Assembly (NCBI GenBank): GCA_003221695.1
Contig: QHSX01000061.1
Coordinates: 1 to 64,000 of the forward strand
Length of the DNA stretch: 64,000 bases
From: Candidatus Rokuibacteriota bacterium
GTDB lineage: Bacteria > Methylomirabilota > Methylomirabilia > Rokubacteriales > CSP1-6
Direction: 5' to 3'
Position 1 is the stretch's first letter; the number at the start of each line of letters is the position of its first letter. Below the pieces are notes generated by a model. It searched no databases, was not told where the DNA came from, and saw only the letters and a list, made by a program, of their open reading frames with translations. The translations under genes were made by a program, and so were the position numbers. Positions 42,679 through 50,178 of the stretch are shown here, in pieces.

Positions 42679-43662
42679 TCACTCGACGATGCGGTCCGCG
42701 CGCGTGAGTAGCTCGGTCGGCACCTGGAGGCCCAGGGCGGCCGCGGTCCCCTTGTTGATCGCGAGGACGAGCTTCCGGGCCCCCTCGACCGGGAGCTGCT
42801 GGGCTTTGGCGCCCTTGAGGATCTTGGCGACGATGCCGGCGGCCTGGATCCCTTCCGCGTACGGGTCCGAGCCGTAGGCGGCGAGCGCGCCCTGCTGGAT
42901 CCACAGCGCAGTCGGGAAGACGGCGGGGATCTTCCGCGCGCGCGACAGCTCGAGCATCCGTCCCGGGATCGCGAGCGAGCCGAGGTCCGGCGGCAAGAGA
43001 CCGTCGCCGGGACGGAGCTCCTGCATCGCGCGCTCCACGTCCGCGGGGTCGCGCACCGCACGATCCAGCACGGCGACCTTGAACTGGGTCGCCACGGCCT
43101 TCGCCTTCTCCGCGGCGGCGCGGGACGCGGCGTCGTCGGGCTGATAGACGGAAAGTACGCGGCCGACATTCGGCGCCAGCGCTTTGAGGATCTCGAGGCG
43201 CTTCGGCACCAGGTCGGTCGTGAGGCTCGACACGCCCGTGAGGTTGCCGTCGGGCTTCGCGAGGTCCCTGACGAGGCCCGCGGCGACCGGGTCGGGCACG
43301 GCGGTGAAGACGATCGGGATCGTGAGCGTGGCGGCCTTCGCGGCCCGTGCGGCGGCGTCGCCGTTGGCGAAGATGAGGTCCACCCCGGCCTTTGCGAGCT
43401 CCTCCGCCGCTCTCGACAGGGCCCTGACGTCGCCGCGCGTGAAGCGGACGTCGAAGCTCACGTCGTCCTCCTGAAGCCCGAGCTCCTTGAGCCCGGCCCG
43501 GAGCCCCTCGACCATCGGAGAGTTCGCGGCGAGCGTCGTGTTGACGACCCCGATGCGAAAGCGCTTCGCCGGCTGGGCGAGCGCGTCGTCGGGCAGGACC
43601 GATGTCGCACCGAGAAGCAGCAGGACAACGGCGGGTAGTCCAGTTCGGGTCAGCAGGCTCAT
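42679..43662 (-). CDS. PF04392-type (ABC_sub_bind, TrpX-like) binding protein
   Basis: 327 residues from the ATG at 43662; the frame is open to 43701, but MSLLTRTGLPAVVLLLLGAT is a normal Sec signal start and lies six bases after an extended -10. The mature part begins FRIGVVNTTLAANSPMVEGL; IPIVFTAVPDPVAAGLV and GNLTGVSSLTTDL are family signatures, and the C-terminus ends LLTRADRIVE. The family binds tryptophan, tyrosine or related ligands in characterised cases. It is the first gene of the sensory operon and the only intact member of a local group of four. Confidence 0.9.
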   Translation of the reverse strand: MSLLTRTGLPAVVLLLLGATSVLPDDALAQPAKRFRIGVVNTTLAANSPMVEGLRAGLKELGLQEDDVSFDVRFTRGDVRALSRAAEELAKAGVDLIFANGDAAARAAKAATLTIPIVFTAVPDPVAAGLVRDLAKPDGNLTGVSSLTTDLVPKRLEILKALAPNVGRVLSVYQPDDAASRAAAEKAKAVATQFKVAVLDRAVRDPADVERAMQELRPGDGLLPPDLGSLAIPGRMLELSRARKIPAVFPTALWIQQGALAAYGSDPYAEGIQAAGIVAKILKGAKAQQLPVEGARKLVLAINKGTAAALGLQVPTELLTRADRIVE

Positions 43663-43668
43663 GGCGAG

Positions 43669-43677
43669 AAGATAGCA
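43669..43677 (-). promoter_or_regulatory. Extended -10, likely promoter of the ten-gene sensory operon
   Basis: Minus-strand TGC TATCTT, six bases before the ATG at 43662. No ribosome-binding site lies between, so the operon message is probably leaderless. Same geometry as the epimerase, Phd and zinc-ribbon genes. Confidence 0.45.
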
Positions 43678-43776
43678 CGGGCAGATCAATTCCGGATTCA
43701 CGACCGTGGGGAGATTCGTGACGGAGGTCCGATTAGGCGTCGCTCGTCACTCGATCGCCTTATCGGTACCGCTCCA

Positions 43777-43956
43777 CTATTCGATCACCTGGTCGGCACG
43801 TATCAACAGCGACTGGCGGATCGTGAGCCCGAGGGCCCGGGCGGTCTTCATGTTGATGACGAACTCGTACCGGATCGGCTGTTCCAGAGGAAGCTCCGCC
43901 ATCAGGCCGGACGTCGTCCAAAGCGCGAGCACGCAGAGGAACGTTCGCCGGTTCAT
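43777..43956 (-). pseudogene. PF04392 remnant: signal peptide fused to C-terminal tail
   Basis: 59-codon frame. Residues 1-20 ([20 protein letters not shown]) are the export signal and 23-59 the family's extreme C-terminus ([20 protein letters not shown] then LIRADQVIE). Roughly 250 residues in between are missing in frame, so it cannot form the binding fold. Its start overlaps the stop of the next remnant by four bases. Probably a deletion remnant, though the frame is intact and could still be translated. Confidence 0.75.
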
Positions 43957-44710
43957 TCGATGAGCTGATCCGCTCGCACCAGCAGCGACTGCGGGATCGT
44001 CAGCCCCATGGCCTTCGCGGTCTTGAGATTGATCACCAATTCGAACTTCGTGGCCTGCTGGTACGGCAGCTCGCCTGGATGTGCTCCCTCAAATATCCGG
44101 GCGATGTAGCCCGCCGCGCCGCGATAGAGCTCTGCGATCTCTGTCGAGTACGCCATGAGGCCACCGGACTCCACAAACTCCCGCCAAGGATACACTGCGG
44201 CCAGTTGAGCCTGCTTGGCCAGCTCGACAATGACCCGGCGATGCGTGAAGTTCTCGACCGCATCGACGACGAGGAACGCCTTCACGCGCTCACGAACCAT
44301 CAAGCCGAACGCCCGCCGATACTCCGGCTCCTGGATGGGGTCGCCGAGCGGCGCCTCAACGAGTGTCAGCCCGGCCTGCTGGGCGGCCTCGCGCATCACC
44401 CAGCCGGACGGCCCCTGGCTTGAGCTGGACCACCTCGCGGGCGAGATCGCCGTAGCGCCCCGTATGCCCTCCTCACTAAGCGCCGCTCCACCACGAGGTT
44501 CCTCCCTTCCGCGTAACCGAGGCGACGCAGCTCGGAGAAGAGCGCCTTGTAAAAACGGGGGCCCTTTTCCTCGGTCAGGTCGGCGACAGGCGTCGAGGGG
44601 TGCACGAACGCGATCCGGTACATCTTCCCCGCCTGCTGCGCGTCTGCGGCGAGTGGCGCGGACAGCGTCCCCATCGTTAGCCCGCAGAGGAACGTGCGCC
44701 TGTCCATCAT
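43953..44710 (-). pseudogene. PF04392 binding-protein pseudogene (deletion and frameshift)
   Basis: N-terminal part (from MDRRTFLCGLTMGTLSAPLA through RIAFVHPSTP to GYAEGRNLVVERR) is followed by a frameshift near 44485; GRYGDLAREVVQLKPG continues in another frame. The part that should carry the first half of the binding fold is then missing (about 110 residues), and the C-terminal piece (VKAFLVVDAVENFTHRRVIV to [10 protein letters not shown]) is in yet another frame. Overlaps the third copy by ATGA. No functional protein is expected. Confidence 0.8.
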
Positions 44711-45710
44711 TCGATCACCTGATCCGCCCTGAACAGCAGCGACTGCGGGATCGTGAGGCCGAGCGCCTTTGCGGTCTTGAGGTTGATCACGAGCTCGACC
44801 TTTTCTGGCTCCTCCACCGGAAGGTCCGATGGCTTGGCGCCGTTCAGAATCTTCCCGACCAACGCGCCGGCGCGCCGGAAGTCTGCGGTCGCGCTTGCTC
44901 CGTATGCCATGAGACCGCCAGCGAGGGCGAAGTCAGGTCGCCACCCGATCATCGGGAGTCGATGCTGCAGGGCGAGTTCTCCTAGTTGGACGTGCGCTAT
45001 AAAGAAGGTGCTGTCGGGCAGCAAAAGCACGCCCTGGGCGCGATTCCGCACCATTTCATGAAACACCCCTGCGAAATCTTGCGGGCGGCGCGCCTCGAAC
45101 ACCTGAGACTGTAGACCGAGCGCACGGGCGGAATCGAGACTAACGTGCAGATGATGGGCAAAAGGCAATGGGTTCGACAGAATGGCTATCCGGGAAAGCT
45201 TCGGGACGGCCTCCATGAGGAAGCTCAGTCGTTTCCGGTTAGCTGCGTCCCTGTGTGCGTGAGACCCGTCATATTGCCGCCAGGGCGTGAAAGGCTGACG
45301 ACGAACTGGCTCGCCACCGGGTCGGCTGAGCCACTGAACACAATGGGAATCGTCCGGGTCGCCTGCTTGGCGGCCACGGCTGCCTGGTCGCTGGGAGTGA
45401 AGATGGCATCGACACCAAGACGCACAAGGTCTGCCGCCAACTCCGGTAACCGCTCGTATCGATGCTCCGCCCATCTCCACTCGATCGTCAGGTTCTGGCC
45501 TTCGACGTAACCAAGTTCGCGGAGCCCTTCTCGAAAGGCCTCGTTGAGAGACGGAACGCCGGGCGCCGGACCGGACGCCAAAAGACCCACACGCACGCTT
45601 TTCCCGGTAGGCTTCGCACCACTCTGCTGCTGCGCCTCGACGGCGAGCGGCACGGCGAGCAGGTTCGCGACAAGGGCGAGGGCGAGGATCAGCGGCGTTC
45701 TCCGCCCCAT
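44707..45710 (-). pseudogene. PF04392 binding protein with single frameshift
   Basis: Full-length copy split by one frameshift near 45225-45245. The 5' part (signal to VEAQQQSG, then VRVGLLASGP, IPIVFSGSADPVASQFVV, GGNMTGLTHTGTQLTG) ends at a TGA; the 3' part continues one frame off from KRLSFLMEAVPKLSRIAIL to LLFRADQVIE. Restoring one base in the short A-run CGGAAACG would rejoin them, so this is either a young pseudogene or an assembly error. Lower GC than the core operons. Confidence 0.8.
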
Positions 45711-46196: not shown

Positions 46197-46656
46197 TGAG
46201 CAGTCGGTCGATCGCCTTCTCCAGGCAGCGCTTGATCTCGTCGCGACAGGCGCGGTACACGTCCTCGTCCTGGCCGACCGGGTCCGCGATGTCGCCGTCC
46301 TCGCCGACGAACTCCTTGAGCGTGAACACCGGCCGCCCGTCGGCCTCGGCGAGGGCGCGGAGCTCGCGCTTCTGGAGCGCGGTCATCGTCAGGATCAGGT
46401 CGGCGGCGGCGACGACCTCTCGGTGCTGGCGGAGGTTCGTGGAGAGGATCTCGGTCTCCGAGAGGTGGATCCCGTCCTCGCGGAGCAGCAGGCGCGCGTC
46501 GAGGGACGGGATCATGCCGTCGCGCGCGGTGTGACCGATGCCGCCCGACCTGACCCGCACGCGGCCGTTCCGCTCCGCGAGCATCTTTTCGAGCAGCGCC
46601 TGGGCCATCACGCTCCGACACGTGTTCGCGTGGCAGACGATCAGGACGGTCTTCAC
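46174..46656 (-). CDS. Low-molecular-weight protein-tyrosine phosphatase/arsenate reductase-like
   Basis: 160 residues. The phosphate loop is CHANTCRS near the N-terminus (C-x5-R-S, with Asn and Cys as in the family) and the general acid is the Asp of DIADPVGQDEDVYRACRDEI. Could dephosphorylate protein tyrosines or act as a thioredoxin-coupled arsenate reductase; residues between do not decide. GTG start overlapping the SDR stop. The convergent antitoxin remnant overlaps its end by 23 bases. Confidence 0.9.
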   Translation of the reverse strand: MKTVLIVCHANTCRSVMAQALLEKMLAERNGRVRVRSGGIGHTARDGMIPSLDARLLLREDGIHLSETEILSTNLRQHREVVAAADLILTMTALQKRELRALAEADGRPVFTLKEFVGEDGDIADPVGQDEDVYRACRDEIKRCLEKAIDRLLTTTPGLP

Positions 46657-47645
46657 GGCTCCTCCCAGGGCGACTGCCAGAACCGCATACCGTGAGCGAG
46701 CTCCTTCCACTCTCCGGCGGGACGCTCGTGGAGGGTCTTGCCGAAGAGCGTGCCCGGCGGTGGCTTGAGGCCCCGGCCGAGGGTCGACGGAAAGAGCGTC
46801 GCCAGCTCGTCCGGCGTGAGACGCCGGTCGGCCTCGAGGCGGCGCACCGCCTGGGGCTGGGCGACCAGCGTGTAGCCGTAGCCGAATGAGTGGAACACCT
46901 GGCCGTTGACGTGCTGGGCGCCGTCGCTCGCCAGGTAGACGACGAGGGGCGCGACGTTGTCGGGGTCGCGTTCGGTCTCGGCCGCCAGCTCGCTTGGCCA
47001 CTTGCCGGTCTCGGCGAAGACCTCGCGGCCGCGCGGCGTGGAGTCGATCATGCGGGTGGCACCGCTCGGGAGGATCGCGTTCGTCGTCACACCGTACTTG
47101 GCGAGGGCGTTGGCGGTGGACCACGTGAGCCCGAGGATCCCCGCCTTGGCCGCGGCGTAGTTCGGCTGGCCCGGCGCGCCGAGCGCGGAGACCGAGGACA
47201 TGCTGATGATCCGCCCGCCGCACGTCTCGCGCATCGCGATCGAGGCCGCCCGGACCGCGTTGAACATGCCCTTGAGGTGGACGGCGATCACCGCGTCCCA
47301 CTCCGCTTCGGTCATGTTGAAGACCATCCGGTCGCGCAGGATGCCGGCGACGTGCACGAGGATGTCGATCCGCCCGTACGTTCGGATCACCTGCTCGACC
47401 ATCGACGCCGCCTCGGCGACGTCCGCGACCGAGCCGAAGTTCGGCACCGCCGCGCCGCCGGCCTTGACGATCTCGTCCACCACCTGCGCGGCCGGCCGCG
47501 CGTCGCCGCCCTCGCCCGCGAGGCTCGCGCCGAGGTCGTTGACGACGACCCGCGCCCCGGCCCGGGCGAGGGCGAGCGCGACCCCCCGGCCGATCCCGCG
47601 CCCTCCTCCAGTCACCAGTGCCGCCTTGCCGTCGAGCATGCCCAT
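46653..47645 (-). CDS. SDR oxidoreductase with C-terminal extension
   Basis: 330 residues, about 80 longer than a plain SDR. TGGGRGIGRGVALALARAGA binds NAD(P), HVAGILRDRM replaces NNAG, MSSVSALGAPGQPNYAAAKA holds Ser, Tyr and Lys. The N-terminal part resembles the 3-hydroxyacyl-CoA dehydrogenase of peroxisomal-type multifunctional enzymes (NDLGASLAGEGG insertion). The C-terminal ~75 residues (RRLEADRRLTPDELATLFPS onward) have no clear family. Follows the selenoprotein-like gene by three bases. Confidence 0.88.
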   Translation of the reverse strand: MGMLDGKAALVTGGGRGIGRGVALALARAGARVVVNDLGASLAGEGGDARPAAQVVDEIVKAGGAAVPNFGSVADVAEAASMVEQVIRTYGRIDILVHVAGILRDRMVFNMTEAEWDAVIAVHLKGMFNAVRAASIAMRETCGGRIISMSSVSALGAPGQPNYAAAKAGILGLTWSTANALAKYGVTTNAILPSGATRMIDSTPRGREVFAETGKWPSELAAETERDPDNVAPLVVYLASDGAQHVNGQVFHSFGYGYTLVAQPQAVRRLEADRRLTPDELATLFPSTLGRGLKPPPGTLFGKTLHERPAGEWKELAHGMRFWQSPWEEP

Positions 47646-47648
47646 GGT

Positions 47649-48560
47649 CTACTCCGGAAGGGGTCGATAGTAGGGGTTCCCTGCCTTCGTCCACGCGCCG
47701 AGCATCTCGCGGAACGCGGGTCCCATCGGGTCGATCCCGCGCATCGGCATCGTACCGCGTCGGATCGTGAAGTCGTGCGGCGCGAGCTCCCCCGCCCGCT
47801 CGAAGTGACGCGCGGCGGCCTCCGAACGCCCGCACTCGAAGAGCCACCGGCCCAGGCCGAACTCGGCCCGCGCCTGCTGGTCCGTGTCGGTGGGCAGGGA
47901 CTGGAGCGCCTGTGTCCGCGCCTTGGGAAGGGGCGGCGCCTCCCCCCGCACCCAGGCCCTCAACGCCCCGAGGTGCTTCGCGGCCTCGAGCCCGGTGATG
48001 TGCTTGAACGTGTCGGTACCGAAAGCCACGTCGTTCGGACGAACGATCCGACCGCGCTCGTCGATCCAGACGATCGTCGGCACGTTGACCATGTTGTAGA
48101 GATCCGCGACGACGTGCCGCGTGTCGATCAGGGACGGGTGCTCGGGCTTGGCGGCGTCGATCCAGGGGCGAGCGTCCGCGGGACTCCGATCGAGCGCCAC
48201 GGTGACGACGCTGAAGCCGAAGCCCCGGAGCTCCTCATGGACCGCCTGCCACACGGGCAGGTCGAGACGGCACCCTCACCAGGACGCGTAGGCGACCAGG
48301 AGCACCTTCGCCCCGCGGTGGGCTGAGAGCGTGTGCGGGCGGCCGTCGAGATCCGGCAGCGTGAAGTCAGGCGCCTCCAGCGAGACGAGCGCGGCGGCGC
48401 GCACGGCCGCGGGCACGCCGAGGTACGCGGCGCGCTCGTCGAGGTCGAGCGCGACCGGGCGCCCCGCGTCCTGCGCCCGTCTCGCCCGCTCGAAGCCGTC
48501 TCCATAGGCCACCTCGACCGCGCGGCCGTCGTCGATGAGCGTGAACCCCGGCTCGGCCAT
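47649..48560 (-). CDS. TlpA/redoxin-like protein with predicted selenocysteine (TGA at residue 95)
   Basis: 303 residues if the TGA at 48276-48278 is read as Sec. Residues 70-200 form a thioredoxin-fold redoxin: APDFTLPDLDGRPHTLSAHR, KVLLVAYASW, then U-G-C-R-L-D-L-P, FGFSVVTVALDRSPADARPW and the cis-Pro loop VNVPTIVWIDERGRIV. The TGA occupies exactly the active-site cysteine position of W-C-x-x-C proteins, giving a U-x-C redox pair, and the frame stays open before and after. A SECIS-like hairpin follows. The C-terminal ~100 residues are TPR-like. No signal peptide, so probably cytoplasmic. It lies between two SDRs in one operon. Alternative: a nonsense-mutated pseudogene. Confidence 0.8.
48242..48275 (-). 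promoter_or_regulatory. SECIS-like stem-loop downstream of the in-frame UGA
   Basis: Counting from the first base after UGA, bases 15-20 (CCUGCC) pair with 26-31 (GGCAGG) around the loop CGUGU; a bulged A14 and three further pairs (UCG with CGG) extend the stem. The apical loop starts 21 bases after UGA and has G as its second base. These values meet the published bacterial SECIS pattern (short stem, small loop with an early G, loop 16-37 bases from UGA). Confidence 0.7.
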
Positions 48561-48572
48561 GACCGCCGCCCC

Positions 48573-49373
48573 CTACGGCCCACCCGGCGGCGCGCCCGCG
48601 CGGCTCGCCGCGGCGATGTCCGCGCTCATGTCGCGCGGGATCGTCGGGCTCATGACGATCTCCTCGATCACCGTGCGCGCCGGCAGCGTGACACACAGGA
48701 GGATCGCGCGCGCCACATCCTCCGCTTGCATCATCGTCGCCCGCGCCTTCGCGTCCGGCGGCAGCGGCCGGTTCTCGAGGATCGGCGTATCCACCTCCGC
48801 CGGCATGATCGTCGTTGCGCGGATCCCCTTGTCGCGAAGCTCCGTGTGGATGTGGGACATCAGATTCCGGACGGCAGCCTTGGCCGCGCCGTACGGCGCG
48901 CCGCCGATGAGCCCCGGCCGGAGCGCGGCGACCGACGACACGGTGACGATCGTCCCGCCTCCGCGTTCGAGCATGCTCGGGAGCACGGCCTGGGTCAGCG
49001 CGTAGACGCCGTTCAGGTTGACGTCGAGCACGCTATCCCATTCGTCCTTGCTCACCCAGCGGATCGAGCGGGTCTTGCTCGAGTGGCCGGCGTTGTTGAC
49101 GAGGACGTCGACCCGGCCGAGCGTCGCGAGCGTCCAGTGGGCGAGCGCGGCCGCCGCGCCGTGCCTCGAGACGTCCGCCTGCCGGGCGGTCGCCTTCCCG
49201 CCCGCCTTGTGGAGCTCGCCGACGACGTCATCGAGCGGCGGCTTGCGCCGGCCGGCGACGACGACGTGCGCGCCCTCCGCGGCAAGCAGCCTGGCGGTTT
49301 CGCGGCCGATGCCGCTGCCGCCCCCGGTGACGATGGCGACCTGCCCGTCGAGTCTCGCCATCACGCCAGCCAA
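48573..49373 (-). CDS. SDR-family oxidoreductase
   Basis: 266 residues, classical SDR. TGGGSGIGRETARLLAAEGA, DVLVNNAGHSSKTRS, and catalytic Ser/Tyr/Lys in TVSSVAALRPGLIGGAPYGAAKA (within SSVAALRPG and PYGAAKAAV). Metabolic substrate unknown. Ends 12 bases before the selenoprotein-like start and begins 13 bases after the aldolase, so cotranscribed with both. Confidence 0.9.
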   Translation of the reverse strand: MAGVMARLDGQVAIVTGGGSGIGRETARLLAAEGAHVVVAGRRKPPLDDVVGELHKAGGKATARQADVSRHGAAAALAHWTLATLGRVDVLVNNAGHSSKTRSIRWVSKDEWDSVLDVNLNGVYALTQAVLPSMLERGGGTIVTVSSVAALRPGLIGGAPYGAAKAAVRNLMSHIHTELRDKGIRATTIMPAEVDTPILENRPLPPDAKARATMMQAEDVARAILLCVTLPARTVIEEIVMSPTIPRDMSADIAAASRAGAPPGGP

Positions 49374-49386
49374 CGGTCCCCCAAGA

Positions 49387-50178
49387 TCAGTACGCCGGCA
49401 GCTTCCCGGCCCGGACGCCGGTCTTTCGCACGGCGGCGACCTCCTCGGCGGCCTTGGCGGCCAGGAAGCGGCTGTCGCTGGCGAGCGTGACGAACTGGTA
49501 GCCCGCGGCGATCATCTTCAGCGCGTAGGCCGCGGTCGCGTTGTGGATGCCCGCGACGACGCCGTGGCGCTTGCACGCCTCGACGATTCTCTGCTGGGCT
49601 TCCACGACGGGCGGGTCGGTCTGGTCGAGGCGCGGCTTGCAGCCGAGCGTCAGCGACAGGTCCGAGGGGCCGACATAGACCGCATCAACACCGGGGACCG
49701 TCAGGATCGCGTCGATGTTCTTCACGGCCTCGGCCGTCTCGATCATCGGCATGACGATCAAGTCGTCGTTGGCGTGGTCGCCGTAGTCGCCGCCCGCGTA
49801 GATCGACGCCCGCACGGGACCCCAGCTCCGGTAGCCGCGGGGCGCGTACTTGCACGCGGCAACCAGCGCCTCCGCCTGGGCCCGCGTGTTGATCATCGGG
49901 CAGATGACGCCGTAGACGCCCGCGTCGAGGATCTTCATGACGCGCGCCGGATCGTTCCAGGGGACGCGCGCCAGCGGGATCATCGGGGTCGTCGAGATCG
50001 CCTGGAGCATCGTGACGGCCACCTGGTAGTCGACGACGCCGTGCTGCATGTCCACGGTGAGGGAGTCGAACCCCTGGTGGGCCATGACCTCAGCGGAGAA
50101 CGCGCTCGGAATCGACAGCCACCCGTTCACGACCGCCTCGCCCCGCGCCCAGATCGTCTTCAGCGTGTTCTCCCTCAC
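49387..50178 (-). CDS. HpcH/HpaI-family aldolase/citrate lyase-like
   Basis: 263 residues. Class II aldolase of 2-keto-3-deoxy acids: SIPSAFSAEVMAHQGFDSLT, the active-site Arg in YRSWGPVRAS, metal ligands Glu in MPMIETAEAVKNIDAI and Asp in YVGPSDLSLTLG. Splits or forms pyruvate plus an aldehyde, for example in homoprotocatechuate or sugar-acid breakdown. GTG start one base after the nuclease stop. Confidence 0.92.
   Translation of the reverse strand: MRENTLKTIWARGEAVVNGWLSIPSAFSAEVMAHQGFDSLTVDMQHGVVDYQVAVTMLQAISTTPMIPLARVPWNDPARVMKILDAGVYGVICPMINTRAQAEALVAACKYAPRGYRSWGPVRASIYAGGDYGDHANDDLIVMPMIETAEAVKNIDAILTVPGVDAVYVGPSDLSLTLGCKPRLDQTDPPVVEAQQRIVEACKRHGVVAGIHNATAAYALKMIAAGYQFVTLASDSRFLAAKAAEEVAAVRKTGVRAGKLPAY

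Follow-up and report, generated by a model that had tools for sequence, protein, structure and literature searches.

An in-frame TGA at the active site of a TlpA/ResA-like gene from Rokubacteria: a well-supported candidate selenoprotein of the predicted UGC kind

How an in-frame TGA within an otherwise continuous oxidoreductase gene is to be read is the question raised by a locus in the 64,000-nucleotide stretch of Candidatus Rokuibacteriota DNA analysed in this study, hereafter the window. A preliminary description had placed a candidate selenoprotein at positions 47649-48560, with TGA in the place of a catalytic cysteine. Our analysis shows that these coordinates are correct and adds the strand, minus, which that description had not given. 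When the TGA is taken as a residue, the minus-strand frame reads MAEPGF...LLVAYASW-U-GCRLDLPVW...VNVPTIVWID...RPLPE and then ends in TAG; the frame LLVAYASW-TGA-GCRLDLPVW had therefore been read properly, with TGA as codon 95, and the count of 208 codons after it is also right. Under table 11 the same frame is divided into a 94-aa ORF (48560..48276) and a GTG-started 201-aa ORF (48254..47649). At a GC content of about 70%, an open frame is by itself weak evidence, and it is the conservation of the TGA that exceeds chance. The features at issue are the following:

48560..47649, minus strand: candidate selenoprotein gene of 303 codons, one of them an in-frame UGA (ATG at 48560, TAG at 47651..47649)
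48276..48278, minus strand: UGA codon 95, putatively read as selenocysteine, from the frame and homologue conservation
48267..48278, minus strand: active-site codons U95-G96-C97-R98, invariant in the alignment (position 95 being Sec or Cys)

The protein encoded by this frame is predicted to adopt a thioredoxin fold. Its Pfam matches are to AhpC-TSA (PF00578, 57.9 bits against a cut-off of 26) and Redoxin (42.7 bits), and the AlphaFold2 model, in which Cys was placed at position 95, reaches a mean pLDDT of 96.4 and a pTM of 0.93. In structural comparisons, for which Foldseek was also used, residues 57-206 of the model match the DsbE-like protein 3gl3 (Z 16.1, rmsd 2.0 over 140 residues), while ResA 1st9 aligns with residues 59-206 (Z 15.2, rmsd 2.2 for 136 residues). 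Further downstream, a TPR-like region contains model helices 225-242 and 246-259; its Pfam TPR_2 match of 18.7 bits is under the cut-off of 27, and TPR proteins in the PDB are matched by whole-sequence E-value only, with no single stretch passing. These parts of the protein correspond to:

48042..48377, minus strand: AhpC-TSA / TlpA-like thioredoxin-fold domain, residues 62-173 (Pfam PF00578, E 1.2e-15; AlphaFold2)
48075..48089, minus strand: V-N-V-P-T, residues 158-162, putative cis-Pro loop, the cis state being assigned by homology
47772..47870, minus strand: TPR-like helical segment, residues 231-263 (sub-cut-off Pfam TPR_2, PDB profile matches, helices)

The loop VNVPTIVWID, which had been noted as the cis-Pro loop in the downstream part, is present in the sequence with V-N-V-P-T at residues 158-162. 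The TGA, said to sit exactly where the nucleophilic cysteine would be, is indeed located at the thioredoxin active site, within W-TGA-G-C-R, where two of 62 homologues carry TGC (Cys). In the protein alignment A1, which holds 61 sequences with L058 and L067 left out, S93, W94, G96, C97 and R98 are invariant, and position 95 is either Sec or Cys. Since C97 is the sole downstream Cys found in all 63 rows, a Sec95-Cys97 selenenylsulfide would be the natural redox pair. The window protein resembles ResA, TlpA and DsbE (CcmG) in its fold (Z 12.0 to 16.1), in the Trp before the nucleophile and in the conserved Pro of the facing loop, but it has U-x-C in place of C-x-x-C as well as N- and C-terminal additions. 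TlpA/ResA oxidoreductases are exported to the extracytoplasmic side, whereas neither an export signal nor a hydrophobic N-terminus is seen by eye in the window protein, which suggests a cytosolic location.

Given that the top Pfam match is AhpC-TSA, and that this kind of protein was first named 'Prx-like' in catalogues, as the relevant section of one of them has it (PMC2398784), the protein could be a selenoprotein as proposed and yet function as a peroxiredoxin-type peroxidase, not as a disulfide oxidoreductase. However, the peroxiredoxin signature T-x-x-C/U, given as TxxU for Sec-Prx in the same section (PMC2398784), is absent from the window protein, which reads A92-S93-W94-U95 at this place. 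Moreover, the best structural matches of the model are DsbE-like and ResA proteins, with Z values of 14.3 to 16.1, against 12.0 to 13.2 for peroxiredoxin-type chains. We therefore regard a peroxidase as unlikely, and a TlpA/ResA-type disulfide oxidoreductase as the preferred reading of the fold.

The homologues that bear on the reading of the TGA come from a scan of GTDB genome contigs, which gave 63 loci; 20 of these are Rokubacteria by record title, and the remaining loci include Chloroflexi, Planctomycetia, Alpha-, Gamma- and Deltaproteobacteria, Actinomycetota and Lambdaproteobacteria. The nearest named relative, with a protein identity of 87%, is a Candidatus Rokuibacteriota MAG. One locus (L044), the match of which starts after codon 95, was left out of the codon counts and of the genome selA search. 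Across the 62 homologues that span the codon, TGA is found in 60 and TGC in two (L035 and L043). A comparison of homologues at this codon had been recommended in the preliminary description, and it reveals always TGA or TGC and no unrelated residue, so that Sec appears nearly fixed among the sampled relatives. In the phylum of the window, 47 of 95 genomes have a relative at E <=1e-30. Exactly one TGA is present in each of the 52 phylum matches that span codon 95, out of 55 in all, the other three beginning downstream, and its placement is SW-TGA-GCR in all ten phylum matches examined as loci, the window's own copy included. A near and a far copy occur together in three phylum genomes (G037, G061 and G091).

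Against ten close relatives, differences at codon positions 1, 2 and 3 number 166, 188 and 374 before the UGA (940 codons) and 265, 213 and 721 after it (2080 codons). By this measure, the codons downstream of the UGA evolve as coding sequence. As table 11 gives two separate ORFs, the TGA might be a true stop, with a functional 94-aa product and the 201-aa ORF as a second protein. Such a division, however, would cut the thioredoxin fold immediately before its active site, although the three residues that directly follow the TGA (G96, C97 and R98) do not vary across 61 sequences. Both Cys homologues run through as a single protein, and one confident AlphaFold2 fold, with Cys modelled at position 95, covers both halves; a pair of separate proteins is thus highly improbable.

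The selenocysteine reading gains further support from a SECIS-type hairpin just past the UGA:

48245..48261, minus strand: putative SECIS apical hairpin CCUGCC-CGUGU-GGCAGG (fold, compensatory changes, synonymous-codon control, published model)

This hairpin has a 6-bp stem (CCUGCC/GGCAGG) and a 5-nt loop (CGUGU), with the stem at +14 nt and the loop at +20 nt from the UGA, and the apical hairpin alone folds at -9.3 kcal/mol. The bacterial SECIS model, as set out in the pertinent section of a 2026 review (PMC13188914), comprises a stem of 4-16 bp, an apical loop of 3-9 nt with G in the first two loop positions, a UGA-to-loop distance of 16-37 nt and an MFE <= -7.5 kcal/mol, and the window hairpin agrees with the model in every one of these respects. 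The stem is mostly encoded by Leu-Pro-Val-Trp-Gln codons, so that protein conservation might mimic pairing, and three controls were applied for this reason. The third codon bases of Pro and Val, at which any base is synonymous, are designated N1 and N2, and the SECIS alignment (A3) leaves out the two TGC genes, L035 and L043. Among the 61 TGA genes, N1-N2 is C-G in 44, G-C in 13, A-T in three and the non-pair G-G in one. Complementarity of the two bases is seen in 60 of 61 genes at this site; elsewhere in these genes, Pro-Val dipeptides pair in 17 of 62 cases with wobble counted. By synonymous resampling per gene, the combination of five inner pairs, a Watson-Crick N1:N2 and G-[G/U] is expected in 8.3 of 61 genes and observed in 60, and with the partner slid by 1-3 bases 34.6-63.8% of cells are paired, compared with 98.5% in register. 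Covariation was assessed by five measures in all. Cells changed on both sides number 24 (59 distinct rows) against a shuffle mean of 5.1, a value reached by none of 500 shuffles, and two of the five measures are no better than shuffles, namely pairs changed on both sides (3, reached by 189 of 500) and further pair types (8, reached by 130 of 500). The first Leu base and the last Gln base also change together (C-G, T-G, T-A). Mapped on the 62-row protein tree, N1/N2 requires no fewer than nine changes of state and TGA/TGC a single one; a strict test of independent pairs for Pro3/Val3 on this tree yields 2-3 pairs, too few for significance. Taken together, the 60 nt that follow the UGA show no greater stability than shuffles (z +1.0).

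The machinery for selenocysteine insertion was another point on which the preliminary description had asked for a check, and all four genes that it named, selA, selB, selC and selD, are present in the source genome, which comprises 4.6 Mb in 109 contigs and is listed as 100% complete. There selA (588.6 bits), selB (373.3 bits) and selD (337.1 bits) score above their curated cut-offs, and tRNA-Sec (selC) scores 69.8 bits against a cut-off of 47 and is called by ARAGORN as tRNA-SeC with anticodon tca; selA, selB and selC all lie inside 5 kb on contig C52. Because the selD gene (L084 1405-2727, minus strand, contig C35) holds one TGA in frame, in TCAG-TGA-ASK, the SelD protein of this genome seems to be a selenoprotein itself. 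Two additional in-frame TGA candidates were observed in the same genome, a TlpA-like FWATW-TGA-PDCREELP of the U-x-x-C form (L073 1357-1929, contig C14) and TYG-TGA-INCRNVIPQL in a thioredoxin-like frame (L079, about 1500-1986, contig C11).

Among the 47 phylum genomes that hold the gene, selA is matched in 44, in 43 of them over the cut-off, and tRNA-Sec in 38 at E <=1e-9. Neither is matched in three of the 47 (G057, G060 and G076), all of which are fragmented, with 250-480 contigs; one of them, G060, is 95% complete and has a TGA-form relative, yet shows no selA or tRNA-Sec match. Since selA is likewise matched in 40 of the 48 phylum genomes that lack the gene, against 44 of 47 among the holders, the selA pattern is consistent with the selenocysteine reading but not discriminating within the phylum. 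Outside Rokubacteria, the selA search covered the genomes of 42 of the 43 loci not so titled, L044 being omitted. The gene selA is over the cut-off in 35 of 40 TGA-form genomes there, and no selA over the cut-off was found in the other five (G101, G111, G112, G114 and G128). Turning to the TGC form, selA is unmatched in the complete Aquihabitans chromosome, whose Cys gene has the loop GGCGT, with the G-[G/U] core lost. The genome of L035, by comparison, has a selA match, and its gene, with TGC at 2866, has an intact SECIS-type hairpin. Since hairpin and selA are both retained, L035 looks like a recent change from Sec to Cys.

UGA still terminates genes here. TGA is the end of 36 of the 62 family genes with a stop in hand (61 loci and the window) and of three of the four neighbouring genes, while the candidate selenoprotein gene itself ends in TAG. 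If UGA were read as another residue, for instance Trp, through a changed code or a suppressor, the frame would stay open just the same, whichever residue the TGA were given. It is the use of TGA as a gene end, the finding of Cys as the only replacement, and the presence of tRNA-Sec and SelB together with a conserved SECIS-type hairpin that speak against such decoding and make its probability very small. Smaller still is the chance that the TGA is a nonsense mutation or an assembly error in an otherwise Cys oxidoreductase gene, for although TGA and TGC differ by a single base and two homologues (L035, L043) are of the Cys form, the TGA is common to 60 of 62 homologues from various assemblies and phyla and to all 52 spanning phylum matches, and the codons past it are under protein-level constraint. 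The earlier view that a random nonsense mutation at this codon is improbable is borne out by the identical TGA in these homologues, and a sequencing error seems very unlikely as its source because the same TGA is present in 60 other assemblies. The selenocysteine interpretation is thus supported by the conservation of TGA, the sel genes, the SECIS-type hairpin and the coding constraint past the UGA.

The preliminary description did not recall the U-x-C form as a well characterised selenoprotein family. This is right in that no biochemical study of a UGC-type protein was found in the open-licence literature, but as a predicted kind it has been catalogued since 2005/2008. In the relevant parts of these catalogues, a Prx-like selenoprotein with UXC is represented by one sequence in 2005 (PMC1088965) and 'Prx-like (UGC-containing)' by 46 Sec and 855 Cys sequences from marine metagenomes in 2008 (PMC2398784), and the UGC kind is listed again in 2022 (PMC9312934) and 2026 (PMC13188914). 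Most selenoproteins in the table of the 2022 review are, by its accompanying section, bioinformatic predictions (PMC9312934), and a passage of the 2026 review mentions a MAG from Methylomirabilota in which 63 selenoprotein genes are predicted (PMC13188914). Nothing naming 'WAxxUGC', or 'UGC motif' together with selenocysteine, was found in the open-licence literature; among the matches listed there for selenoproteins of Rokubacteria/Methylomirabilota, no title is on the present gene, and the available portions of PMC5029168 do not mention 'UGC'. The families called 'Prx-like (UGC-containing)' and 'UGC-containing TlpA disulfide reductase family' are, in the excerpts that describe them, alike in an AhpC-TSA/TlpA-type fold, Sec in UGC and Cys homologues. 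The window gene fits the UGC catalogue family by its PF00578 match and by U95-G96-C97, a likeness based on its published description. The UxxC Prx-like/TlpA selenoproteins are similar in having Sec at the equivalent nucleophile position, but two residues separate their Sec from Cys, against one in the window protein. We conclude that the window gene is a well-supported further example of the predicted UGC selenoprotein kind.

The protein tree, from which L067 was left out, reveals two starred clades, A with 37 rows including the window and B with 25 rows at 35-45% identity in the best segment. Relatives enter A1, the tree and the alignment behind the model in a shortened form that keeps 94 codons ahead of the Sec codon. 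With relatives so shortened, the profile NF041054 (WAxxUGC_long, ResA-like WAxxUGC motif-containing protein) matches all 61 A1 members at E <=0.001; at full length, for the window and nine relatives, only L047 of clade B passes the cut-off of 300, with 308.7. The window protein differs from NF041054 in scoring below this cut-off (214.6 against 300 bits), in reading Y-A-S-W-U-G-C without the W-A-x-x-U-G-C motif of the profile's name, and in lacking an N-terminal C-x4-C. Clade-B relatives read W-A/S-S-W-U-G-C. A C-x4-C lies upstream of the fold in 50 of 63 rows, the copy in L071 being doubtful, in a poorly aligned stretch; the 13 rows without it comprise the 11 that make up the window's own starred Rokubacterial clade, plus L027 and L061, the latter having a frame that is cut short 39 codons upstream. 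In the aligned N-termini of 25 chosen rows, the segment is missing in the displayed members of the window's clade, which has lost a segment that most relatives keep. In L018, L026, L065 and others this segment resembles GWxxxPEGxCxxxxCVP, and Pfam at E 0.1 gave no match to it in the three proteins scanned. All 11 rows sampled from the window's Rokubacterial clade have Sec. We speculate, with rather less than even confidence, that this clade may be a separate short UGC subfamily that always uses Sec and has dropped C-x4-C; if the segment acts as an additional redox site or metal site, members of the clade would be one-pair seleno-oxidoreductases with a changed electron donor or substrate. If this is true, the window's clade would offer a natural comparison with the long form. 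Three of the loci (L032, L067 and L068) are titled Klebsiella pneumoniae; L032 and L068 group with relatives from environmental MAGs, L067 is outside the tree, and the titles look doubtful.

The genes around the locus were compared over flanks of about 3 kb:

46653..47645, minus strand: short-chain dehydrogenase, adjoining downstream (Pfam); 13 of the 20 Rokubacterial loci have it adjacent on that side
48573..49373, minus strand: short-chain dehydrogenase, adjoining upstream (Pfam); 9 of the 20 Rokubacterial loci have a near relative upstream
49387..50178, minus strand: HpcH/HpaI aldolase family gene, further upstream (Pfam); 15 of the 20 Rokubacterial loci have a near relative upstream

Both short-chain dehydrogenase (SDR) genes are companion genes within Rokubacteria. 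Near relatives of the window's neighbours flank the gene in Rokubacterial loci only, with weak SDR matches elsewhere in L033, L061 and L068. Because no neighbour family recurred in more than five of the 42 other loci that were clustered, the neighbourhood, conserved in Rokubacterial loci only, was set aside as a guide to function. Elsewhere in the window, positions 42679-45710 hold consecutive ORFs resembling ABC transporter substrate-binding proteins, some apparently split; one was recognised by PF04392 and the rest by eye.

In summary, the computed evidence, which comprises the conserved TGA, its replacement by Cys in two homologues, covariation of the SECIS type, the Sec machinery, constraint on the codons past the UGA and a predicted fold, makes it very probable that the gene encodes a selenoprotein in which UGA95 is decoded as Sec, a TlpA/ResA-fold Sec95-Cys97 oxidoreductase, probably cytosolic and with a TPR-like tail. 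From this evidence we infer Sec insertion itself, the Se-S bond, the catalytic direction, the substrate and the location, and the catalytic role is predicted from fold and motif. In the mechanism that we propose, SelB and Sec-tRNA(Sec) would decode UGA95 as selenocysteine, directed by the hairpin just past the UGA, which is formed largely from the Leu-Pro-Val-Trp-Gln codons. The product would be a soluble TlpA/ResA-fold oxidoreductase whose Sec95-Gly-Cys97 redox centre would cycle between selenolate/thiol and selenenylsulfide, and this cycle would reduce a disulfide or a similar oxidised substrate. With its codons serving both the protein and the SECIS, the gene would be a clean example of overlapping constraints. 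An uncultured lineage of soil bacteria thereby gains a well-supported selenoprotein, whose frame appears under table 11 as two ORFs. Since Sec is retained in 60 of 62 relatives here, against 46 Sec and 855 Cys sequences in the catalogue family as given in that part of its 2008 description (PMC2398784), the subfamily could help to test why Sec is retained.
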